The notes beneath the pieces were generated by a model that was not told where the DNA came from, did not search any database, and saw only the letters and a list, made by a program, of their open reading frames with translations. From assembly GCF_024713945.1 (NCBI RefSeq), contig NC_134684.1:725001-789000 (forward strand): 64,000 nucleotides of DNA, written 5' to 3'. Origin of the DNA: Dermatophagoides farinae (Eukaryota; Arthropoda; Arachnida; Sarcoptiformes; Pyroglyphidae). A program made the translations under genes and the position numbers. Below are positions 14,943-55,600 of this stretch, in pieces (positions within the stretch are counted from its first letter, which is position 1; every line of letters starts with the position of its first letter).

Positions 14943-17900
14943 TTAAGCATAGTAAAGAACACGTTTAAGTGATTGATGAATTTTTACCAATTCATTCAAG
15001 CGATCAATCAATTTCTTTTCATAATCACCTTGAATGATTTGGCCACGAGGCATACATAGTTTTTCAATTTGGGCTTCAACATGAATTTTAGCACGATAAG
15101 CACAAAGATCAGCATAACGAACTGGTGTTGGCAAAGCAATGGCACCACCACGGAATCGAGTACAATTGTGGCAAAGATAAAAAACAAATTTTTGCAATGC
15201 ATCATTGTTGAATATTTTCTTGTCGAAATCATTTTCCAATATAACATATTTCATTGGACGTGATGTTCCCTATGAATAACACAATTTATTAATTACAACA
15301 ACAACAACAACAAAAAACAATCACTTACCAATTGTGAGAAATGTGAATTCAAGAAAAACATGTGTTGTGATGGATCGACAATAGTGTGATCGACAACAGT
15401 TCCCGATGGTACATTATACACGGGACGATCATTTGGGCCACTCGGTTTGGACAATACAAATCGTGTTCGATGACCTTTTTGTACGACGATGAAAATGATT
15501 TTTCCTTTCGGTACTTTTTTCCGAAAAGCCGTACGGATTTGTTTGATTTCCTTTTCTGCATACTGAAATTGGCCATCCGATACACCATCACGAAACACAG
15601 CCAATGTTTGTGGATAGAATTTATTTCGTTGATGATATGCATCCAACAATTCTGTAATCATTGGTTCCAAACACGTAATTTCTTCATCACAACGTTTAGT
15701 TTGTGAACAAATAGATGCCGTATACAATGTAAACAAATCATCATAGCTACCAACAACGGCTGCAATTGAACTTTCAATACGTTCCGTTTGGCCAGGATGA
15801 TTAACATCAATACCACATACCATGGTTTTCGCATGATCGAATGGTAATTTTTTCCATTCTGATGCATCGATAATACTATTTTGGCCACCAATTTTTCCAT
15901 TTACTTTCAACAGTACGTTGTCTAAATATCCACGTCCACGTTGTTTAGCTTTCATTGAATTCAAACATTGAGTAGCGAAACCATATTTTTGATCACCACA
16001 AAATTTTACCATGTTATACATGCCAGCACCTAGAATTTTTTTTCGATAAAAAAAAATCAATTAGTTAAACATTAAAATTATTGGCGATATAAAATCGAAA
16101 AAACATTACATTGAGGCAATGCGACAAACAATAATTTCAAATCGGGAATTTCGGTTTTAATTTTGGCAAAAATTAAATCCACTTGTGCCAGATTGCCAGG
16201 ATTGACTGGTGTAACAATCTTGTTTCGACAGTTGGATAAATCAAGCTTATATCGTTTAGCAGTTGTCACCAATTCACTAACAATGTTTTCAACGTCCGGT
16301 TTATTGAAATTGATATCCAAACTAACAAATGCCCATGGAGTTTTCGGTATGGAGCGAAAAAACGGTTCCATACGTTGTGCATTCATTTGACGTGGTGTGT
16401 CCAATACCCTTCCAGTGAAACGAATTGGTTTTGTGAAAAAATCCGTTTTAAATTCAGACATCAATTCTGGACTTAATGATGGAATTTGATTGGAAATTTT
16501 TGATAATTTATCGAAATAAATCAGTGGTTTATGTGTCGATACACGAAGCAATTCATTCGGTATGTTAGCATCGGCTTGAATTTTTGAATTGTTCAAAAAT
16601 TGTTTATCGACCATACGGCAAAGTTCAAGTGGAATGAATTGTTCTTTGCCAACCGTAGAAACCAATGGATAATTTTGTACACGCACTTTGTATTTTTCAA
16701 GAAAATATTCCTGAATCGATACAATTTGACCTTCATCTTGATCTTTAGTTTTTTTAGTGAATTTATGTTCATTAGGCTTCTGAACAGTCAATCCTTTGAT
16801 GGTGTAACATGTTTTACGACCAGTATGAGTAGTGTAAATTTTCAATCCACGAATAATTTTATTCGCTGCAACAATATCACCAGGACCAAATTGTGATGGA
16901 TCACGGCCACCAGCAATCAATGTTACCAATTTTGATAATTCATCCACCGAAGGAGAGATCAAACATGATGTTTTCAAATGAATGTTCAACGATAATCCCA
17001 TTTCGGTAAGACAAACACCATGGCTAAAACCACTAGCAAACTTAACCCATTCCATTGGGCCACGCATCAAACTACTTGAATCGGTATCGTAAAAGCCATG
17101 TTGATGCGAGAAAAAACGACAAGTGTAACAATATTGGAACAATAACTCCATGAAATGTCGCATAACTTCAGGCAAATCCGATGCGGTCATTTTGTAATAT
17201 TCATCAATATGAGTCAGATCAATCTGTTGTACCATGTTTAAAGCGATTTGAAAATGTTTTTTGCGACTTTCAATTTGTACTTCGATTGTTTTGGGCAATA
17301 CACTCGTATTCAATGGTTTAGAAGTGAACAAATTCTTGCTACGATCATAAACATAATGGAAATTGAAAAAGTTCGCATTAGCGGCAACAAATTCTTGAAA
17401 AATTGCATATGAATGTTTGGCAAAATATTTTTGCTTCTTATCATTGTCAGCATTGAAATATTGACGATCATTTTCGTCGGCAAAATCGATACTCAAATCA
17501 TATTGATACACCAAAACTGATCCAACATTGATCTTGAAATGATTAGCCAATAATTCAACTTGTTTTCCGTGTTGTCCATGTGGTTCAACACTACGACGAA
17601 CAATAGCATAATTTTGAGATTCAGGATATGATGTAACATTCGGCTGTTGATAACCACGATCACCACCCGAACCACCACCACGTCCGCCGCCACGTCCACC
17701 ACCGCGATTAAATCCACCACCGCCGCCACGATTAAATCCACCACCACCACCGCCACGGTTAAATCCACCACCACCACCGCCACGATTAAATCCACCACCA
17801 CGGCCACCCCCACGATCTGTTCAAATAGAATAAATAAAAATTAATTGAAAGAAAAAAGAAAAAAATCGAAAAAACACGTTCAAATCCATCTAGGCTAATA

Positions 17901-42001: not shown

Positions 42002-44236
42002 GGTTGATTTTGATCTAAACAACAAATAAAAAAAAACGAACAAACAAACGAACTGAAGAATGAAAAAGTTTCTTATCAATTTTTTTTCAAGCAAATTTCT
42101 TTTTTTTTTACTTTTTATTCTTGATTCTTCACACTATCAACAACGATGAGCAAGATATTTATTTTAACACTGGTGGAAATGAATATTGTCTGTGTGTGTG
42201 TGTTGAAATAGAAAAAAAAATTAGCATAAATAATATATTCGCGTTATTACTTCTCACCATGTCAGTAGCAATGTTCGTTCGTTCGTTCGTTTTTTTTCGA
42301 AGTAAAAGTTTTATGATGTCTAAGAATGAAATTCTTTAAAATAAAAACATACAAAACATGCTGAATTGAAATGACAACAAAATTCTTGATACAGAATGAT
42401 GCACGTTGTTTGTGTGTGTATGGGGCTTCAGTTTATCATTTTTTTTTCTGTCCATTAGTTATATCAATAATCTTGGTGATGATGATAATTTGCAAATTTG
42501 TTTATTTTTTTTTTATTTTTTTTATTCTGGCTGAAAAATTTCTCTTTTGGGGTTTGTCACGAAACTTTCTCTGTGTTTGTTTGTGTGTGTGTGTGTGTGT
42601 TCGTCATATATTCCATGATGAGCCAGAATCGAATCTTTTTTTTTGTCAGTGGTGCAATTTTTGTTTTGTTTTCAACTTTTCACTTTTTTCACGAATTTAT
42701 CTCTCTATTTTCGTTTTTCTTCGTTTAGTTTCGTTTTTTTGGTGCATGTCATTGTCTATCATTATTTTGATGTATGTGTCTCTGTCTCTGTGTAAAAGTC
42801 TCCAATTTTAACTATATTATATTGAGAAACTTACAGAATGAATGATGTGAAACTTGTGCTCGAGAATCAATGAATGATTGATCGATCTATGCTCGTTCAA
42901 TTGACATTTTCATTTTCAAATTTCATTCATTCGAACAATCTGACTTCTTTTTTTTTTTGGTTTCTGCATCACGTGAAATTCATTCGAACAACATGATGGC
43001 AGAAACAAACAAATGGCAGTTGTCACCTTTGTTTGTTTCTACCATGGATGGTGTTTATTGTACTTTTTTTTATTTTAAATTCAATTCATTCATCCATTGA
43101 AATGAATTGAAATCATCCTCAACATCATCAACAACAACAACAACATCTTTATCGTCGTGATGATGATGATGATGATGGTTAGTTAGTTCCAAGTGTAAAA
43201 CATTCAATGAATAATTCAGCAGAATTATACAAATATAATATACTCCTCACGCGTTCATACACACCGTTTTACTTTCATTTTCATCAAAAAAAAGATCAAG
43301 AGTTTGGTTTATTTCACAGAAAACAAAAAACAAAACAAAAACTATTATCCAACCAACCAGCCAGCCAGCCAGCCAATTCCCAAGTATCGGAATTTTTTTT
43401 TCATCATCATCTCCATACTTTATGTTTTAACATTTTCATGGCAATGAAAATGAAAACTTTTCAATTTTCATCGCTTTTGGTGTTTGTGTGTGTGTGTGTG
43501 TAATGTATGAATTTTTAATGCGTTTTTTTTTGTATTCGCTCCATATTTTTTTTTTTGCCTTAAACTGTCTGTCTCTAATCCGGATTCTTTTTTTTCTTGT
43601 TTTAGATATCAATTGCTTGATTGAAAATTTTTTTGCCTGATAAATTGAAACAAAAAAAATTCAAGTGGTGCCTAGTGTTTTGAATTTTTTTTTTTTTTTT
43701 TTTTTGATGATTTAGATTGTCCAGTTAGTTAAACAATAATGGAAATGAAAACAAAAAAGAAACGACAACGACAACGAAAACGACGAATAACGGAATCACA
43801 ACGGAATAACAAAATGACAACAACAACGACAACGACAGCAAAAATTTCCATTTGTCAATGTCAAAAAATCATGGAAAACAATAATCATCATCATCATTAT
43901 AATCATGGCTTATTGTGTCATTTAATTGATAATTCAAATGATAATGATCATCAACAAAATCCTGATAATAGTACAATTCTATACAATACATCGATACAAT
44001 CGATATTTGGATCAAGATATTTTCAAAAACAACAACAACGACAACGACAACAACAATTATTTATCTTGCCATCATCATCATCGACGGCGACATCCATTTC
44101 CGATCATTGTTTTCGATTTTTGTCCACCACCATTATTTATTTTCATCATTCATTATTTATTGATTTAAATATTTCTGATCAAAAACGACGAAAATCTTTT
44201 ATTCATCAACCACTACTACGACAAATACAACGAAAA

Positions 44237-45458
44237 ATGTGGATACGTCAACAGTATTTATTATTATTATCATCATTGTTTTTATCAGTGTTTTGTTTTG
44301 GTTTTGTTTTTTCATCTATTACATCACCATCATCATTCACTTTTAGTTCAATTCAAAATTCAAATCAAAGTGATAATTTATCCTATTCATTACCTATGAA
44401 TCAATCATCATCATCATCCACAACAGCAACAACAACAACAACAATTTCCACGACAACAGTGATATCCAATGATAATTTGTTCAATTCATCCAAATATTTA
44501 ATTAATAAAGAAAATTTTGATTGGTCATCATCACCATCATCAAATCATGATCATCATCATCATTTATTGATTAAAACATCTAAACGTTCTAATCCAATCG
44601 ATGATTTTATCAATATCGATGAAGATGATAATGATAATACGGATGATGATAATGATGATGATGATATTATGTTTATTATTGATGATAGTGATGTTGATGC
44701 TGTGCCTGATACAATTGACGATCCACCACCGCCAAATCAACCAATTCGACGACAAAAAAAATCTTCATCACCATCACCATCATCATCATCATCTGAAGAA
44801 GAAGATTTTAATATTAGCGGAAAACAGCAACAGCAACAACATTCATTTGTCAATGATAATGTTGATTACGTGATGCATAGTCCACGTACAGTGCAAACAA
44901 AATATGGTGCATTACAAGGAATCGTCATCACTTTTGTTCGTTATAATGATGATGATGATGATAAATCATCTACTTCTACTTCCACGTCTTCTAATCAAAA
45001 TCACAATAACTCATCTTCAACTTCATCGATACCGCCACCACCACCGCAGCCAATTATAACTTTATCGCCGGTTGAAGCTTTTTTAGGTGTACCATATGCA
45101 ACACCACCATCAGGTAATCTACGTTTTATGCCACCAGTGGCACCTATTCATTGGCGTGGTGTACGTCAAGCAAATCATTTATCACCAGTTTGTCCACAAT
45201 TATTACCATCATTTACAACGATGATGAATTTATCTACAACAACAAATGATCATCAAAAACAATTACATTTATCACCAAAACATTTTGATCGTTTACAGAG
45301 ACAAATTCCATTCCTAAGAAATCAAAGTGAAGATTGTCTTTATCTGAATATTTATGTTCCATTTGAACATTATTATCAACATCGTCTTTATCAACGACAA
45401 CGACAACAGCAACAAAATCGTAAATTAAAATCAACAACATCGCCAACATCATCGTTTG
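44237..45458 (+). CDS. Neuroligin-like cholinesterase-domain adhesion protein, first coding exon only (partial)
   Basis: Postsynaptic adhesion protein of the neuroligin family, N-terminal part. ATG 44237 begins a clear signal peptide (basic MWIRQQ then a Leu/Phe-rich core). The same frame is open from ATG 43739, but that would bury the signal peptide. A long unstructured region (about residues 30-215, Ser/Thr/Asp-rich, poly-Asp) precedes the esterase-like domain. The domain starts TKYGALQG near 220, continues with VEAFLGVPYATPPSGNLRF near 279 and FLRNQSEDCLYLNIYVP near 359. The last is a neuroligin hallmark and the second carboxylesterase signature. A disordered insert rich in Asp, Ser, Asn and Pro interrupts the domain around residues 230-275. 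A GTAAGT donor at 45459 ends the exon in phase 1. The remaining exons are not in the window. It lacks any catalytic-Ser exon here, so enzyme activity cannot be judged. Confidence 0.85.
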
Positions 45459-46968
45459 GTAAGTGGATCTTGTCGTTTTTCTTTGATTATCATGAAGAAT
45501 TAGCTAGTATAACGGCTGATGAGAATGTTTCATTTTTGTTTTGTACAAAAAAAAACAGAAATTCTTATTTAAATTTTGCCTCAGGTTCATGTTTGTTTTG
45601 TTCTATTCACATATATTACTCGTTTATTTGAAAATACGCGGTTGAAAAAACAGAAGAAATTTTTTCGAATATATTCGTATAATGAAATTGTGAAAAAGAA
45701 AATCTCTGTATTATGATGATTATGAAATTCACACACACACACACACACACACATGCACACAATGTAACGGGAATTATAAATGTGGAAGAATGAAAGAATT
45801 TTGCCCATCATCATCGTCAATGTTAATCCTTGACAATCTTTCTCTCTCTTGATGTCTTCATTTTTTTTTTTGCTATGATTATCATATATGGAAAATGTTC
45901 AAAGAAAAAAAAAAGAAATGACTAAATGAATGAACGAAAAAATGCTCCAATTCCTTGGAGATTTTCCAACAAAAAAAAATATGCATTTTTTTGTCTGCTT
46001 TTAATTGTCGCATCATTTTCCATGATGATGATGATGATGATGATAATTTTCATAATTATTATGGATAGATAGAATAGTGGAAATGGTTGAATAAAGTCAA
46101 TGGCAAATCTGCTTGTTTTGGCTGAATTTCGCTCTTTTTTTCTTAATCCATGTGATTCATCAAAAAAAAAAAAAAAATTTTTTTGATTTCAAACTTTCAC
46201 ACATATATCGAGATTTTTTTTTCGTTGTTGTTGTTGTTAACAGTTGAATTTCCAAAAAAAAGCTCAATGTAATTTTTGTAAAGAAGAAGAAGAAATGTGT
46301 AAAGTCTGATAATTTGATTATTTTATTGACTGATGATTTCTCTCGCTTACTCTCTTTATTTTTTCTAGCTTTTGAATCAAATTGAGAAATTTTTACGATT
46401 CAAAATTCATGTCATGATGTGTGACCGTTTCAAAAAAAAAATTTACAAGAAAATTTTTTTCTTTTTTTCTGGAAAAAAGGTTGAGTTTTTTTCTATAGAA
46501 ATAGTCGAACATTTTTTTATTATACCGATGATGATGAACTTTATTCATTACAGAACAGAAAAAAAAATTTTTTTTTTTTTCAAATCGATCGAAGAATGGT
46601 CAAAATGTAGAATTGAAAAAAAACTACAGAATTCTTTATTACAATTTGTCCTTCTCTCTCTAAACTTCTCTGCTAAGTTACTCCAATGGGAATTATCTTA
46701 TTTATGTGAAAAAGTTCAAGAATTCGATTTCGATGCCCCAATGTATATACAATAACTATATCGACTAGATTTGTATTGGTAATTTTGTGAGAGAGAGAGA
46801 GAGAGAAAAAAATTTTTTTCGCCAACTCATCAGCATTTATTGCCACAGAAAAACAATAACAACAACAACAACAACAACAGGACAATGATCAAATTGTCTT
46901 TGTTGTTGTTGTTGTTGTTATGCGGTTGTTGTTCATCGAATGAATGACACACAGACATTAATGAGTAA
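45459..46968. other. Probable neuroligin intron, left of the Helitron
   Basis: AT-rich sequence with TG/CA and ATG runs. A 127-codon plus-strand frame at 46372-46755 is Phe/Lys/Ile-rich with homopolymers and not convincing. At 46855-46919 an AAC/CAA run and a TTG run face each other across about 25 nt, forming a potential long imperfect hairpin close to the Helitron border. Confidence 0.5.
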
Positions 46969-46972
46969 CCAG
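46969..46972 (-). other. Helitron 3' terminus (CTGG read on minus strand)
   Basis: Plus-strand CCAG, i.e. CTGG on the element's coding strand, matching the CTRR 3' end. The next host base is T. An alternative end a few bases away cannot be excluded without an empty site. Confidence 0.7.
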
Positions 46973-46979
46973 CCCGAGA

Positions 46980-46998
46980 ACAGGCGCTTCGCGCCTGT
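46980..46998 (-). repeat. Helitron 3' subterminal hairpin
   Basis: Plus strand ACAGGCGC-TTC-GCGCCTGT: an 8-bp perfect GC-rich stem with a 3-nt loop, 7 nt inside the 3' terminus. Helitrons carry such a hairpin just before the CTRR end, thought to act as the termination signal for strand transfer. Confidence 0.85.
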
Positions 46999-47026
46999 CC
47001 TGGTCTGGCCCTGCGGGGCTGACTCC

Positions 47027-47277
47027 TTGACGGTCAATATAACTGGATACCCGCAGGGGTGGCGGCTGCGCCGCCCCCCCTGCTTGGTATCCAGTCAAAG
47101 GTATCAATCCTTGACGGTCAATATAGCTGGATACCCGCAGGTGTGGCGGCTGCGCCGCCCCCCCTGCTTGGTATCCAGCCAAAGGTATCAATCCTTGACG
47201 GTCAATATAACTGGATACCCGCAGGTGTGGCGGCTGCGCCGCCCCCCTGCTTGGTATCCAGCCAAAGGTGTCAATTT
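47027..47277. repeat. Three tandem 84-bp hairpin units in the Helitron 3' region
   Basis: Three near-identical units start at 47027, 47111 and 47195. Each begins with the small palindrome TTGACGGTCAA. Each then carries a long inverted repeat: CTGGATACC...GGTATCCAG arms enclosing GCAGG/CCTGC and GGCGGC-TGC-GCCGCC. The hairpins span 47043-47094, 47127-47178 and 47211-47261. Unit 1 pairs most completely; units 2 and 3 have a T in the left arm (GCAGGTG), and unit 3 lacks one C. Open frames through the array on both strands are by-products of its lack of stops. Confidence 0.95.
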
Positions 47278-47410
47278 TAACGCTTCGTGCTTTGTGCCTG
47301 ACGGTGGATTTGTATGCACGACGTTTTGCTTCCGGCTTTCTGTTTGGTACCGCAGGGTCAGCCATGAATTGTACCTGACACCTTTTTAAATGTTACGTAA
47401 ATCCAACATC

Positions 47411-47464
47411 AACTTATCGATATCAAACAGCATACTTATTATTGTTCATCGATATCGATAAGTT
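47411..47464. repeat. Perfect 14-bp inverted repeat around the Helitron stop codon
   Basis: Arms 47411-47424 (AACTTATCGATATC) and 47451-47464 (GATATCGATAAGTT), spacer 26 nt. The right arm lies within the last codons of the ORF, and the stop codon (47439-47441) is in the spacer. In RNA it would form a stem-loop at the end of the coding region. Confidence 0.9.
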
Positions 47465-50400
47465 GGCGGAATACGATATTTTTGGTGTAGATGCTGCGAT
47501 CGTTGTTGACCGTCAGCAAAATAGCACCTTGCTTTTCCTCAATTTCCTCGACAAAAATCTTAAGATTATTTGGATTTTTGCATCGGGAAAGAGCCACATA
47601 CATCATTCCATGTTGGAATACTGGTGTGGGAAGATATACACCTACTTTTTCGAAAGATTGCCCTTGAGATTTATTAATTGTCAGGGCAAAAGCCAACACG
47701 ACAGGAAATTGTCTACGCACCAATTTGAATGGCAGCTCGGGATCTTGATCATTTTGTTGGAAAATGATCCGAGGAATCAGAGCCTCCGTGTTTTTGTGCG
47801 TTCCTGTCAATATGCGAGCTTTAATGGTGCGTCTTTTTAGTTGTGTGACAACTAAACGTGTACCATTAAGCAAACCGCTTTGTGGTTCAACATTGCGGAT
47901 CAACATTATAATGGATCCAACTTTTAATTCCAGTTTGTGTCTAGGATAACCTTGCGGGTTCATCGCATGAAGACACTCAACATTGAATTGCAAACCGCTG
48001 TGGTTTTCCGCAATATTGTCAATGCTGTAATAAATTGTATTCTCACCAATGAGTGAGTTTGATATTTTTGTATTGAAAAAATGTGCTAAATCATTGGTGG
48101 TGGTGAGAATGACCTTTTTGGCCATTTCCTCTGCCTGATCTTGATAAGCTGGATCAAGTCCAGCACCATAGATTTCAGTTGTTAGCTCGTCAACGCTATT
48201 AACTAAAAATTGATCTGGAACACGGAAGTATTCTGGATCTGTGATTCGAGATGATTCAGCTCGAAGTGTACCGTTGCCCAATTTAAGAAGCCATTCATTG
48301 TATTCAGCAAAATTGGCTGATCTCATATTGGTGCTAAGACTAAACCGTTTTGCATATATCCAAAGCGGTGACTTCTTAATGCTCAAGTCTGCAGAAGAAA
48401 CACAAATTCCTCTGGGAACAATCGGAGATATTTGACGAAAATCTCCCCCAAAGATGATTAATTTACCACCAAAAACTTCTTGCGACTGCATGAGATCTTT
48501 GAGCAATAAGTCAATTATGTTGATCACATGAATCGACATCATAGAGACCTCATCAATGATCAATAAATCAGCGGGAATGATCACCTGTCTTGCTTGATAT
48601 TGATTGGCCGTCATTGTTGATCGATCGGTGGATGTAAGTCTTATTGGAATCTTAAAACCGCTGTGAACTGTTCTTCCGCCAGGAAGCAAATCAGCGGCGA
48701 TTCCGGTGGTAGCGAAAGCCGCTACCGAAAAACCTCGACTTCTTGCATACGATATAATTGCAAGATAAGTGAAAGTCTTTCCCGAACCTCCGGGGCCGTC
48801 CAAAAAATAGAATCGACTATTTTTTTCATGTAGCCGTGGGTTTGATAGTTGTCCACTAATTTCATCGAAAAACTCTCGTTGTTTTTCATTGAGAAGTGGG
48901 ATAGTTTCTTCAGCATATCTAGTTTCGTATTCAATGTCTATTTGGTCATTTTGACCATAACTGACAGGGCCTAGAAAGTCGGCTGAGTATCCTTGAATAG
49001 CAAACAGACGATAAATATGTTGTTTTGCTAAATTTTCAGCTCGTGTCACATTTCGATCTTCATCCTGATAGAGAAAGTCTCCAATCATGAATTCTTTGAA
49101 ATTTTCAAAAAGATCTTTTGGATCCGCTGGGTTATTGTAAATGCAAATCTGCGCGTAGAGTTGACGCATTTGCTTTGGAAGATTGTACACACTTGCTTCA
49201 GTGAGACATTCTATCCATTCACTGTCATTGGCCACTAAACCTCTTAAGATGGCGGCTTCCTTGAAGGTAGCACAAACCTGGCCATTGACAGTTCTAAGGT
49301 CTTCAAAACTTTTTGGACCTTTGACATTTTGAAGCAATAACCGAAGATAGAATCGATCAGATTCGCGAGCACTTACATAATATATTCGAGAAATTATTGG
49401 AACGTGGCGCTGTCGTGGTTCCCACTTTTTGCTGCGCTTATTCCAAACGTAGTGCTCACAAAGTTCGGTATAAAGAAACTCATTTGCATTTGAATCTTGT
49501 GCATTGAGTTTGAAAAAAGCTGTCAACATGTTATCAGTTCGAGCAGCTCTTTCACAAAGACGACGGATTTGTTCAGCGTCATCGTCTTCATTAAAATACA
49601 CCGGTTGTTCTTGGGGCAAGTTCACCGGAAGTCGATATACTGCATGAGACTTATCGTGCATAGGAAATTCTAACAATCTCCAAATAGCTTCACATGCAGC
49701 AGTGTAGCGACTATCAATATAGTTGCGTACTTCGTCATGTACAATCTCGTTCTCTCCATCCGTGGTCACACGAACATGGGCTCGGTCGTTACCTTTGAAA
49801 ATATATTTAAAAAGATAAGCCACAGCTTTAATTGTGCGAACTATTTCAGCGTTGATATGACACTGAAAAGTTTTTAGGAGATAAAGATTATGTGGCACAA
49901 TCATACTGTTGTCGATTGTTTTGCCATTGTACACAACTGATGGGGCGTGCTCCCGACGGTATCTCGGATAACCGTCGTTTTCAATCACTGTTTCAGCCTC
50001 AAAGGGCTTTGGAAATTTTCTATTACATTCGCCGTCTTCATTGAGACAACGATTGGGCATACAGGTATGTACCATATGCTTCAGCACAATTTCCCTGACA
50101 AATTCATAATCTGGATTGTCAGGTGGGATTTGAGCCGAAATGTATCGGTCAATCTTTTCCGGTGTGTCAAGTTTATCCCCATCTATTAACCAAACAATAA
50201 TGTGGGCATGTGGCAATCCACGTTTTTGGTATTCAATCGTATAGACATAGGCTTGACATCTACCGAAATATCCCTTTTTGTATATAATTTCCATCAAATG
50301 ATTGAGTTTTTTTTTAAAAACTCTATCAATCAAATCTGGTCTTTCAAAAGCAGTTTGATTTTGATGCAAATTTTCGATAATTTCAGGCCATTCTGTGTTT

Positions 50401-51863
50401 GCAGTCATGGTTATGAATAATTCTGGGAAACCATACTTTGCAACAATAGCCATAGCGTCATGATAATGCTCGTTCATATTTCGAGCACTACCTTCAAAAG
50501 AGGAAGCGAGAATAACAACTCTTCCAAGTCGTCCTTCTACTTCATTGGCTTCACTTTCCAAAGCATCCATTAGACCTCTGTATTGGTCTACTCGAAGTTG
50601 GGCTTGGTTTTTTCTGTGCCAATCCAAACGACTGGTTTCTACATTGAGAAACTTGTCTATAACCCAAACATGGAACAGTCTACCACCATCAAGAATCGGG
50701 TTATAAATGTTTGGTCTCTTAAAGAGTTGGCTTGAATAAAACTGAAGCTGAGTGACATTTCTGTCTCTCGCTGGTTCGTTTAATTCATCCAAATTGATGC
50801 GTTGTCCTGGTATTGGCGACCATCCTTCTTCGCCGTTTGGATAGAAAAGGACGTAACACATTGGATTCAGATGTTTGCTTAGATAATGAATTCTGAACGT
50901 GCTTGCTTGTCCGGCCGGGGTTCGAGGATAGACAACAAAGTCACGTTGAATTTGTGGCAAACCATCTGGGTCAGATTGGTAAATGAAAGCGATCTCACTC
51001 GCTACCGGTGCATTATAACGTCCGGGGTGTGGATCATTTCGGTTTATACGTCTGACATTTCGTTTGAAAATCAGACTCATGTTCATAGATTCTGCTCCTG
51101 ATTCATTAAGAGCATCATTAAAAGCTTTGAATTGGATCGCATAAGGATTATTCTGGGCCAGAAAATCGTGAATTTGAACCAACAAAGCTCTTTCAAGATC
51201 AGAATTAGCTGGATGCTCCAATCGACGTTCTGCAGCCTCTTCGGGCGCATAAACAAATATCTGAGCATAAGCCCGATCTTGTGTTTGTTCAGGGTGGAGG
51301 TGAGCCATTAAATGATATGTCATTCCATGGCATTTGATTGCTTGAACTCCACGTGTGCCACGCAACGATTCATCATGACGCATTCCAATTGAGGCAAAAC
51401 TCAAGGAAGCATTGTAGTTGATTATGTGTTTTTTGAAATTTACAAAATTTGGATTTTCACGATTTGTGAATAAATCTTTCAAAAAATCCGGATAACCAAC
51501 GAATCGTTGCGGCTGCACTTTGCCGTTGTGACAGCAACTGTTTGATGTTTCCCCCGGAAAAAGATAAGCATTGCATTTGTTGCATTGCTTATTCATTTCT
51601 CCAATATAATGGATGGAAACATCTGCGTCACGATAATTGTCGTGAGTCACCCGAGTGACATCAACATTGGCTCTAAGAACTCTCATTCTTACTTGGCTAG
51701 ACTGAAGTCGTCGTCGGGTCTCTTCCTGGCTTTCACTTGCTCGAGTTTCAGCCACATTAGCCGCGTGGGCAATACGCCTGATTCTTGTAACAGAATCACT
51801 TTGGTTGGCGCGATAAGCACGCATATACTCACGCCTACGTGCTCTTTCTTGTTCGTTTGGCAT
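47439..51863 (-). CDS. Helitron Rep-helicase transposase, intact
   Basis: Single 1474-residue ORF with no stop or frame break. A basic N-terminus carries a Cys-rich zinc-finger-like segment (C94, C97, C110, C111). A Helitron-like N-terminal region follows. The HUH nuclease has H552-A-H554 in GLPHAHIIVWL and candidate catalytic tyrosines Y715 and Y720 in YIDSRYTAACEAIWR. A long linker leads to a superfamily 1 Pif1-type helicase: Walker A GPGGSGKT (1023-1030), Walker B IDEVSM (1103-1108), FGGDFRQ (1138-1144), STNMR (about 1177-1181), TINKSQGQSF (1395-1404) and YVALSR (1422-1427). The Rep nicks and joins DNA and the helicase unwinds it for rolling-circle transposition. Codons use G/C endings more than neighbouring host genes. 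An intact frame implies recent activity. Confidence 0.97.
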   Translation of the reverse strand: MPNEQERARRREYMRAYRANQSDSVTRIRRIAHAANVAETRASESQEETRRRLQSSQVRMRVLRANVDVTRVTHDNYRDADVSIHYIGEMNKQCNKCNAYLFPGETSNSCCHNGKVQPQRFVGYPDFLKDLFTNRENPNFVNFKKHIINYNASLSFASIGMRHDESLRGTRGVQAIKCHGMTYHLMAHLHPEQTQDRAYAQIFVYAPEEAAERRLEHPANSDLERALLVQIHDFLAQNNPYAIQFKAFNDALNESGAESMNMSLIFKRNVRRINRNDPHPGRYNAPVASEIAFIYQSDPDGLPQIQRDFVVYPRTPAGQASTFRIHYLSKHLNPMCYVLFYPNGEEGWSPIPGQRINLDELNEPARDRNVTQLQFYSSQLFKRPNIYNPILDGGRLFHVWVIDKFLNVETSRLDWHRKNQAQLRVDQYRGLMDALESEANEVEGRLGRVVILASSFEGSARNMNEHYHDAMAIVAKYGFPELFITMTANTEWPEIIENLHQNQTAFERPDLIDRVFKKKLNHLMEIIYKKGYFGRCQAYVYTIEYQKRGLPHAHIIVWLIDGDKLDTPEKIDRYISAQIPPDNPDYEFVREIVLKHMVHTCMPNRCLNEDGECNRKFPKPFEAETVIENDGYPRYRREHAPSVVYNGKTIDNSMIVPHNLYLLKTFQCHINAEIVRTIKAVAYLFKYIFKGNDRAHVRVTTDGENEIVHDEVRNYIDSRYTAACEAIWRLLEFPMHDKSHAVYRLPVNLPQEQPVYFNEDDDAEQIRRLCERAARTDNMLTAFFKLNAQDSNANEFLYTELCEHYVWNKRSKKWEPRQRHVPIISRIYYVSARESDRFYLRLLLQNVKGPKSFEDLRTVNGQVCATFKEAAILRGLVANDSEWIECLTEASVYNLPKQMRQLYAQICIYNNPADPKDLFENFKEFMIGDFLYQDEDRNVTRAENLAKQHIYRLFAIQGYSADFLGPVSYGQNDQIDIEYETRYAEETIPLLNEKQREFFDEISGQLSNPRLHEKNSRFYFLDGPGGSGKTFTYLAIISYARSRGFSVAAFATTGIAADLLPGGRTVHSGFKIPIRLTSTDRSTMTANQYQARQVIIPADLLIIDEVSMMSIHVINIIDLLLKDLMQSQEVFGGKLIIFGGDFRQISPIVPRGICVSSADLSIKKSPLWIYAKRFSLSTNMRSANFAEYNEWLLKLGNGTLRAESSRITDPEYFRVPDQFLVNSVDELTTEIYGAGLDPAYQDQAEEMAKKVILTTTNDLAHFFNTKISNSLIGENTIYYSIDNIAENHSGLQFNVECLHAMNPQGYPRHKLELKVGSIIMLIRNVEPQSGLLNGTRLVVTQLKRRTIKARILTGTHKNTEALIPRIIFQQNDQDPELPFKLVRRQFPVVLAFALTINKSQGQSFEKVGVYLPTPVFQHGMMYVALSRCKNPNNLKIFVEEIEEKQGAILLTVNNDRSIYTKNIVFRQLIDIDEQ

Positions 51864-52681
51864 TTTTTTCTGTATGTATTATCGTCAAACGAAAAGGCTA
51901 AGGAAAACGATGATGATGATGATGATGTTTGAACACAAATTGAACACAATCAAACAAAAAAAAAATCAGTTTTAAACTGAACACAAACAAACAAATAGAA
52001 AATCAGTAAAAAAAATCGAAAATCACACGTGTTGGAAATCAAATCAAATCAAAATCAAAAAAAAAACGAAACAAACGAAAATGAAACAAACGAAACAAAA
52101 CAAACAAACGAAAATGTGATGTGATATTGTAAAACAACACGTGTGTTGGAAATCAAATCAATCAAAATAAAAAAAAAATAGTTCGAAAATTCGAAAAAGA
52201 TTGAATATTTTTTATCAAAATCATCAAAAATGATTTCATCATCAAATACACACTCACACAGGCACACAAAATGAACTATCTAAATTCGAATTCGAACTCT
52301 TTCTATGTTCTATTGAATAATTGCACCATCTATCGGATGCAAAAGCTGCAGCAACGTGTGCTGAGCTAGAACAATGAAAAAAATATTTGTCAAAGCTACA
52401 TACCACAGAATGCGTTTCTTTAGAAGAGGCTTCTACTTCTGAGCTGGAAGAACTGTTCAGCGGCATTCAAAAGTTTTCCCGCATGCTCAGACACACACAC
52501 ACAACACACACTGAGTAGCTCATACAAAATAGTTATGTTTGTACTGAAAATAAGTAGGAATGGCCGGCTCAGCTTCGCCGCATTAAATGCCAAGTTAATA
52601 CACAGTGCTAGTACACAGTGCAAGCACTTGGCGTGTGTAAAACTCGCAGTTACTCACAAACAAGCGTCATAGTATAGTAGA
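51864..52681 (-). promoter_or_regulatory. Helitron 5' non-coding region
   Basis: 818 bp between the element's 5' end and the Rep start codon. The inner part (51890-52260) is A-rich on the plus strand with CAAA and AAATC repeats. The outer part (52420-52681) is more GC-rich. It should contain the element's promoter and the 5' nicking site at 52681. No further ORF is supported. Confidence 0.6.
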
Positions 52682-55600
52682 TTTATTTTTTTTTGGCCTT
52701 CAAATACATTCTGTTATCATCATCAACCAATGATGATGATGATGATGATGATGATGCATTTTCTTTTCCATCACACACACACACACATTTGTTGTGTTTA
52801 CATGTGAATAAACATTTGATGATCTAATGTGGATGTAGATCTCTATGTCGGTTGTTTGTTGAATTTTTTTTTCAATTTAAATTTTACATTCAAAAAACTG
52901 AGCGATGACAAAAATCCAGATGTTTTTTAAATTTCCAAAAAAAAAAAAAAAAATTTTAATTATAATGAACCAAAAAAAAAAAATCTAAGCAAACACTTTT
53001 ACTGCTACTGCTACTGCTACTGGTGGTGGTGGTGGTGGTGGTCATTTTCATTTAACATTTCCAGTCCAATGAATTTGATTTTGTGAAACAAACAAACACA
53101 CCGAAAAACAGGTGCATCTTTTTCACACATATGCTCAATTTTTTTTGTTTCGGTGATGACATAATTTCTTGTTTTTCTTACGGACACAGAGAGAGAGATT
53201 TAAAAAAATTAAAAAAAAACCTACACACACCACCACCACTGCCACCATAGTTCAAAAACTAAAAGATCAAATCAAATGATTTTAATATCAACAAAAAAAA
53301 AAAAAATTTTTTTCTTGTTTTCCATTCAATCATCCTAAAGAAAACAAATGAAAGTGAAAGTGAAATTGAAACTTTTTCAGTGTGAAACATACATACACTC
53401 GAATATTTTGCAAACATAATCATCATCATCATCATCGGTATGCATAACAACAAACATGACAGAAAAAAAAACACCACCAACAACAACATCATTATTTATT
53501 TGAAGAAAAAAACTACTGTTTGTTTGCATTATATTCTTTCTTTCTTTTTTTTTGGGGGGGGCCTTCGATAATGATGATGATGATCCTTTTTTTCCATTTA
53601 ATGCGGTTGATACTACAACGACGACTACGACGAACGAACGAAAGACATCCGTTATTCATCACAAGTGTATCGAATGAAATGAAATGAAATTCACATTGTA
53701 TTCACCGTTTTTTTTTCTCTCTCTCTCGCTCGTTCTTTTTATTTCAATATATTTAAATTGGCATCATTAATAACTTCAATGGAAAAAAAGCAACTACAGA
53801 AGCAAGCAAGCAAAAAAAACACAAAAATAGAAAATTCAAAATAACATTGAATATGCATTGGCAACTAGAAGAAAAAAAAACAAATTTCCGTTTTTGTTTA
53901 TTCGTTTCTTTGGTGAAAAAAAAAACAGAATCACAGAATCAGAATGATGGAATATGGGAACAAATATATCAACAAAATACCAAAATGTGCAAGCTTGTTG
54001 TTCGTGTTCTTCTTCTTCTTCTTTTTTTCCAATTCATTTGGTGTGGTTTTTTTTCATTCATTCATTGGTAAAATGGATGAATGAAAAAAAATTCTGAAAA
54101 ATTGTCATGTCATTTATGTGTGTGTTCGTGTTTCCTTACTCCCACGCACATATTTTATGTATGTGTGTGTGTGTCGATTGTGTTTCAATCTATTTCCGGA
54201 TCCGCAAACAACCGAAAAAAAAATAATATCTAATTGGCTGAAAAACCAAACTGAATATTTTTTGTTTACCTATTGCTGCAAACACACGTACGTTTTTTTT
54301 TGGATATTTGTCATTTTGTGGATATTTCATCATCATTTGTTGCTAGTTTTTTTTTCGGCATTTTATTATGACAATAATAAATAATAAATAGTAGCCTTTG
54401 GGCATCGTTGTGTTTCAAATGGTCGATTCCATTTTATTCATTATTTATATATCGAGGTTTATGTGTGAAAAGTTAAACTTGCAAGAAATGTAAAAAAAAA
54501 AATTTGACCATTTTAATGAAGTAACAAAACAAAACAAAAAATGCATTGCAGTGAAGAGCACATTTCATCTGTCTGTGTGTGTATTTAGCCTATTTTTTTT
54601 TTGTTTTTGTTTTGTTTATTCCACCATTTCATTCTCACTTTAATTAATGCGAATTTTTTTCAAACTAAATTCTTGAAAAAAAACAAAAATTCATGTTTTT
54701 TTTTTGTTCACAAAGATTAAAATAAAAAAAGGCTCAACCAAAAAAAAAAAAAAAAAAAATACGGATTCCACTATTCATCGTGATCACTTTTTTTCTTGTT
54801 ATTCGTGTAAATGAAAACTTTTTTTTTCTAACAAAAAAAAAACGAGAGAAAAATACATAAAACACACACACACACACACCACGCATACAAAACAAATACA
54901 GTGTGTGTGTGTGTATTGGGTGTATTGGGTGTGCGTGGGAAGAAAAAAGAAAAAGAATATAAAGTGAGGAAAAAAAAAATCTAATCGAGCGAATAAAGTC
55001 CAATTAGTTTTTTTTGTTGTTGTTGTTTGTAATTTTGTTCATTTTGTCAGTAAGTATAATCTGAATATATCTATCTATCTTTGTGTGTGTGTGTGTAAAT
55101 TGATGATTAAAAACAAAAATTCTTGATACTAAAATATCCAATTTGTTTGGTTATTTGTGCTTGTTGTTGTTGTTGTTGTTGTTGTGAAAGTCTTTGTATA
55201 AATGAAATAGAGAGAGAGAAAGCTAGTCAGTTGTTGTTTATAGTTTTTTATTTAAACACACATACACACACACACAAGTTGACACAATTAATCATTGATC
55301 AAATACCAATAATAACAACAACAACAACAACAGCAGCATAAAGAATTCATAAAATACACTTGATTCACATATAGCATCGTTTTATTTGATAATAGTTTTT
55401 CACTTTAACTCTCTTTCTTGGATATATCTTGATCATCGTAACAAGAAGAATTTTTTTTTCTTCTGGAATCTCAAGTGATTGTGTGTGTGTGATACACAAT
55501 TCTTTGGTGATGATTTTCACACACACACACGCCCAGAACTCAAACACACACACACTGGGTGAGACTCGATTTTCATGTTTGAATCGTTTTCTATTTGTAT

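Follow-up and report, generated by a model that had tools for sequence, protein, structure and literature searches.

A probable autonomous Helitron of the mite Dermatophagoides farinae, from a family long resident and probably lately mobile in its genome

The 64,000 nucleotides analyzed here (the window; assembly GCF_024713945.1, contig NC_134684.1, positions 725,001 to 789,000) contain a complete mobile element of 5,713 bp. We are highly confident that one joint explanation covers it: an autonomous canonical Helitron (Helitron1 type) of D. farinae, a member of a family long resident there, with Helraiser-like transposition and recent jumps within the mite. The original prediction spoke of a mite-like genome. 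This can be narrowed to D. farinae, since a group 2 allergen-like exon on C1 is nearer to Der f 2 (270.7 bits over 122 residues) than to Der p 2 (247.1). In the chromosome assembly of this species (62.43 Mb, ten pseudochromosomes) Der f 2 is on chromosome 1 (PMC11074847). The parts of the element are the following.

46969..52681, minus strand: complete autonomous Helitron, 5,713 bp (from termini, flanks and relatives in its own genome)
52652..52681, minus strand: 5' terminus (LTS), TCTACTATACTATGACGC..., preceded by A (52682)
51864..52681, minus strand: 5' non-coding region including the LTS, 818 nt, GC 0.335
47439..51863, minus strand: RepHel transposase frame, 1,474 aa, unbroken (Pfam; match to Helraiser, 7lcc)
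51531..51584, minus strand: cysteine cluster, residues 94-111 (sequence pattern)
50193..50738, minus strand: Helitron_like_N (Rep) domain, residues 376-557 (Pfam)
49803..49817, minus strand: YLFKY with two putative catalytic tyrosines (alignment with Helraiser)
48252..48893, minus strand: PIF1 helicase domain, residues 991-1204 (Pfam)
47838..47972, minus strand: Pif1_2B domain, residues 1298-1342 (Pfam)
47410..47465, minus strand: 15-nt perfect inverted repeat, 26 nt apart, spanning the stop codon
47024..47275, minus strand: three tandem 84-bp units
46980..46998, minus strand: hairpin of the 3' terminus (RTS), stem 8 bp, loop 3 nt, 11 nt from the end
46969..46995, minus strand: 3' terminus of type I, ...CTGTTCTCGGGCTGG, followed by T (46968)

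On its own strand the element reads, with its flanks, ...AATAAA|TCTACTATACTATGACGC ... CGGGCTGG|TTACTC.... The A at 52682 closes the left flank, the element starts as TCTACTATACTATGACGC at 52681 and ends as ...CGGGCTGG at 46969, and T (46968) comes next. With the element removed, the joined flanks would read ...AATAAA|TTACTCATT... on the minus strand. The termini are 5' TC and 3' CTRR (TCTACTATAC... and ...CGGGCTGG), as in Helitron1, and the overall form is A|TC...CTGG|T. The distance of 11 nt between hairpin and end agrees with the Helitron1 definition (about 10-12 nt) in those passages of PMC5148889 that separate Helitron1 from Helentron and Helitron2. Both termini had been predicted, and the same ends recur in other copies; the predicted 3' hairpin is found at 46980-46998. 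The last 60 nt fold at -18.1 kcal/mol and the first 60 nt at -5.9. The 84-bp array is placed downstream of the stop codon and ahead of the terminal hairpin. A single unit of it gives a long hairpin rich in G+C (-30.0 kcal/mol, DNA parameters), and there are one to four unit cores per element among the 28 paired elements described below. Rfam at its gathering thresholds gave no match within the 64-kb window.

The predicted intact Rep-helicase frame also stands. It is stop-free over 1,474 residues, it has Pfam matches, and Helraiser (PDB 7lcc) is its best match among solved structures, with 1019.9 bits over RepHel residues 39-1469. The HUH motif GLPHAHI (residues 549-555) is inside the Rep domain (50193..50738). 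The Walker A motif GPGGSGKT (residues 1023-1030) is within the PIF1 domain, and in the 7lcc alignment its lysine pairs with the glutamine of K1068Q, the Helraiser mutant whose structure was solved. The tyrosines of YLFKY, counted by hand on the alignment, correspond to Helraiser Y727 and Y731, the two residues mutated in PMC5876387. This is the Helitron1 arrangement: a Rep part that carries HUH and two tyrosines, in one protein with a PIF1-like helicase. No endonuclease domain was matched by Pfam in the 1,474 residues at E up to 0.1. The cysteine cluster of RepHel we presume to be zinc-finger-like.

A search of the mite's own genome with the element as DNA gave at least 116 matches, and 40 of 156 candidates were scored. 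Three terminus patterns were also searched, each at up to 3 mismatches; the counts are lower bounds and no census. The type I 3' terminus (...CTGTTCTCGGGCTGG, the type of the window) is present at 22 places at least and type II (...CTGTACCGGGCTGG) at 52 at least, with 0 for the reversed-pattern control in both cases; the 5' pattern is present at 76 or more places, against 8 in its control. The copy count that the original prediction proposed as a check therefore comes to at least 74 3' termini, both types together, and two whole Rep domains. Thirty-four of these 74 termini were fetched and read. The survey covers 39 sources, namely 38 of the 39 regions fetched (a distant fragment, L052, was left out) and the window. 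The 34 3' termini come from 33 sources, the other six having none, and 28 of them pair with a 5' terminus. In these 28 elements there are six types of 5' terminus and two of 3' terminus, and 5' types A, B and C occur with both 3' types. Additional to the six is the form TCTACTCTTTAAGAGG, found in L023, L029 and L040. Four places in the genome match the Rep domain, with five matches in all; the domain is whole in the window and at C7:4583442-4591186, and partial on C1 and at C8:2964k.

Two separate observations concern the 5' termini. The form ATCTACTATTCTATGTCGCT is present at 14 genome places (e.g. C5:4852149 and C2:4648871), only two of which fall in Helitron loci that were read (L015, L050). 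Tandem 5' termini are seen in L042 on C7 (three, about 300 bp apart), in L019 on C2 (two, 87 bp apart) and at C8:1324255 and 1324276 (two, 21 bp apart).

Recent activity, which the original prediction had supposed, is indirectly borne out by a near-identical coding pair and by short derivatives at unrelated sites. The C7 copy, on another chromosome, is the sole other copy with a whole Rep domain. It is frameshifted by one inserted base in the helicase half, and its coding region differs from that of the window at 21 of 4,425 bases. This divergence is near the heterozygosity of the assembled strain (0.52%; PMC11074847), and therefore the two coding regions are about as close as two alleles. Twelve changes are synonymous and nine non-synonymous (pS 0.0127, pN 0.0026, pN/pS 0.20). 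The 12 of 21 compare with an expected 21% (binomial p 0.0004, for 21 changes and uncorrected for transition bias). Six of the eight changed residues fall in residues 33-53 and are perhaps one exchanged tract. Among short elements, L017/L037 are 99.85% and L022/L046 99.81% identical, among 21 pairs listed. Flanks were compared in nine of these pairs and have nothing in common except one 23-nt match; hence all nine are separate insertions. Judged from such comparisons, the window copy and its closest relatives probably come from recent transposition within the mite, and not from a demonstrated recent transfer.

The same genome contains much older material. Coding pieces at C8:2964k are 87-89% and those at C7:3029k 84-89% identical to the element in DNA, and both have stops in the reading frame; their aligned protein identities (65% and 47%) are low because of frameshifts. 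A fragment at C1:1742k has 48% identity over 54 residues and no DNA match. Among the matches listed, many short relatives carry pieces 71-81% identical in DNA, and others are above 90%. The family has been resident long enough to acquire several end types and mostly short derivatives. Whatever its first origin, it is no newcomer in D. farinae.

What might that first origin be? The family could have entered an ancestor of the mite by an older horizontal transfer and diversified there, the window copy being a late descendant. Such transfer is reported for other arthropod Helitrons in passages of PMC6544945, and it is compatible with all present data. Nothing speaks positively in its favour, and we consider it a serious possibility that is on balance doubtful. 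Recent arrival and horizontal transfer were candidates of the original prediction. A recent transfer, in which a Helitron lately entered D. farinae from another species and is only beginning to spread, we now think improbable. It would agree with the intact frame, with a G+C content above that of the flanks, with a RepHel GC3 (0.339) that exceeds the range found for 12 host frames of the window (0.16-0.30), and with the movement of Helitrons between arthropods (PMC6544945, in part). However, decayed coding fragments, relatives of 71-81% identity and several end types share the genome with the window copy, and for this reason recent transfer is not preferred. An abundance of old and diverged copies within one genome had been named beforehand as an outcome that would speak against transfer. 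To a large extent this is the outcome: pieces of 71-81% identity, stop-bearing fragments, six 5' and two 3' types. Six short peptides, fit for close relatives only, found no relative in viral contigs and six none in prokaryote genomes; a eukaryotic donor would not be there.

The base composition, which had been put forward as a sign of transfer, deserves a separate comment. The contrast with the flanks is real. GC is 0.298 and 0.294 in the 5 kb of flank on each side, and in the element it is 0.335 in the 5' non-coding part, 0.406 in the frame and 0.547 in the 3' non-coding part. Mostly, this is a contrast of coding with non-coding DNA. Twelve Pfam-supported host frames of the window (17 were scanned) have GC 0.31-0.40, so that the gap of coding against coding is about 5 points and not 11, and RepHel is only slightly above them in GC3. 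Elsewhere, the stop-to-stop frames that surround seven ML-domain exons of the host have GC3 of 0.19-0.57. Since the gap is mostly one of coding against non-coding and host GC3 reaches 0.57, composition does not show foreign origin, and we rejected it as evidence for transfer.

Two other readings can be dealt with briefly. DINE/Helentron elements have tandem repeats near one end, and DINE-1/Helentrons have short derivatives and internal tandem repeats, as the mite family does. That the element is a Helentron or of Helitron2 type, a reading to which its tandem repeats near one end would lend something, is nevertheless hardly credible given 5' TC, 3' CTGG, the A|T target, the hairpin 11 nt from the end, the lack of an endonuclease among the Pfam matches and Helraiser as the best solved-structure match; the group of DINE-1 and Helentrons (PMC4067079) differs in that Helentrons carry an endonuclease and other termini, according to passages of PMC5148889. 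Equally remote is the domestication of a Helitron as a host gene with a cellular role. Such a gene, too, would have an open frame and be under purifying selection, in line with the pN/pS of 0.20 between the two coding copies. But the frame is enclosed by complete mobile ends, and two chromosomes carry near-identical coding regions in differing non-coding surroundings.

We return to the autonomous canonical Helitron and its insertion. There is T on the right of 33 of the 34 3' termini (the exception is L038) and A on the left of 27 of the 28 paired elements (the exception is L021, and L014 is counted despite altered first bases). Insertion is between A and T, as in Helitron1. A comparison of left with right flank in 30 elements, set against crossed pairs, showed no common target duplication. 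Five of the 30 elements reach the top 3.5% of the crossed pairs, against an expectation of about one. The window copy is outside the eight highest scores listed. The high scores of L028 and L033 are simple T- or TA-rich matches. In L014 and the second L036 element, the high-scoring flank matches start exactly at the 3' junction and the 5' ends are altered, hence some insertions may be irregular. In both of them the left junction also resembles the right flank over 13-16 bp with gaps, as though repair had joined the ends.

The mite sequences themselves show the anatomy, the motifs, the preferred target and the structure of the family; for nicking, peeling and circle formation we lean on Helraiser. 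By that analogy, RepHel would nick at the 5' TC end by means of one of its two tyrosines, and the PIF1 helicase would peel the strand off after the nick. Peeling would stop at the hairpin before CTGG, and the element ends would be joined into a circle. Insertion would take place at an A|T site, and no regular duplication of the target would result. A junction in L029 (C4:1244400-1248300, minus strand, about base 2035) suggests such joined ends. There CTGG|TCTACTCTTTAAGAGG joins two Helitrons precisely with no base between them. Also read as CTGG|TCTACT, it leads from the 3' end of one Helitron to the 5' end of the second without an intervening A. Junctions of this type are not new, since end-to-end junctions and tandem arrays are reported from plants and bats in passages of PMC5876387. 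A genome-wide scan with a joined-end pattern gave one match, in L027, which resembles ordinary flank and was rejected as a true junction. The L029 junction was missed by that pattern because its 5' terminus differs.

Outside the coding region, the window and C7 copies are less alike. Past the stop codon the alignment has 16 gap columns and, in 154 aligned bases, 6 substitutions; compared with 12 of 948 synonymous sites, 6/154 gives a Fisher p of 0.03. In the 84-bp array, where C7 has one unit fewer, the count is 6/167, and downstream of the array it is 7/54. The 5' side of C7 has 2,993 nt against 818 in the window and carries three 5' termini, 91-94% identical to that of the window. This one pair suggests that the coding region has been exchanged between backbones. 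The candidate of a 3'-end exchange at the 84-bp array is weakened, as the differences between window and C7 rise already after the stop codon. A more speculative joint reading can be offered. The window copy would be an animal Helitron of natural mobility that still jumps, in a host whose piRNA pathway has been lost. Its 84-bp array would be a stack of 3' stop signals, its coding region would move among different non-coding backbones and be combined with either type of 3' end, and the family would evolve by end exchange around a shared transposase. We think it rather unlikely that all of this is correct.

Among known systems, the element is like Helraiser/Helibat1 of Myotis (PDB 7lcc; PMC4778049 and PMC5876387, both in part), a single Rep-helicase protein with a nearly full-length match. 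HUH, two tyrosines, Walker A, 5' TC and a hairpin before a CTRR 3' end are common to both, and the L029 junction suggests a likeness to the end-to-end joined intermediate of Helraiser. The 3' end is CTGG in the mite element and CTAG in Helraiser, and the mite element has the 84-bp hairpin-forming array before it. The mite element is a natural sequence of predicted activity, whereas Helraiser, the model animal Helitron, had to be reconstructed from decayed copies in bats for want of an isolated active element (PMC4778049). The arthropod Hel1/Hel2 families, known to us by description, include Helitrons of spiders, and autonomous partners were reconstructed in some hosts (passages of PMC6544945); the words mite and Acari are absent from the main text of that paper. 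Xuan-Feng of wheat is also a natural Helitron family, with reported mobilisation, in a plant (PMC13286980, in part); this likeness too is by description.

Taken alone, this is a transposon of an ordinary kind. A small animal genome in which an unbroken Helitron occurs beside near-identical relatives would be a useful system. D. farinae has no Piwi proteins, and its piRNAs are replaced by siRNA-like RNAs; of its eight Argonautes six are in a divergent clade and none is of the Piwi clade (PMC5805368, in part). The family therefore offers a way to study what becomes of a rolling-circle transposon when piRNAs are absent. The word Helitron occurs neither in the main text of the assembly paper for D. 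farinae (PMC11074847) nor in that of PMC5805368. Among the papers searched, the one with both Helitron and Dermatophagoides describes a tomato russet mite genome, with D. pteronyssinus used for comparison. The family may be catalogued already in paper supplements or repeat databases.

Two other loci within the window we mention for their own sake. An RGG-rich Argonaute gene with ArgoN, PAZ and Piwi domains lies at 15296-17820 on the minus strand. A 632-aa frame at 43733-45628 on the plus strand, about 1.3 kb from the Helitron 3' end, has a low-complexity start and, at its residues 446-546, a carboxylesterase fragment.
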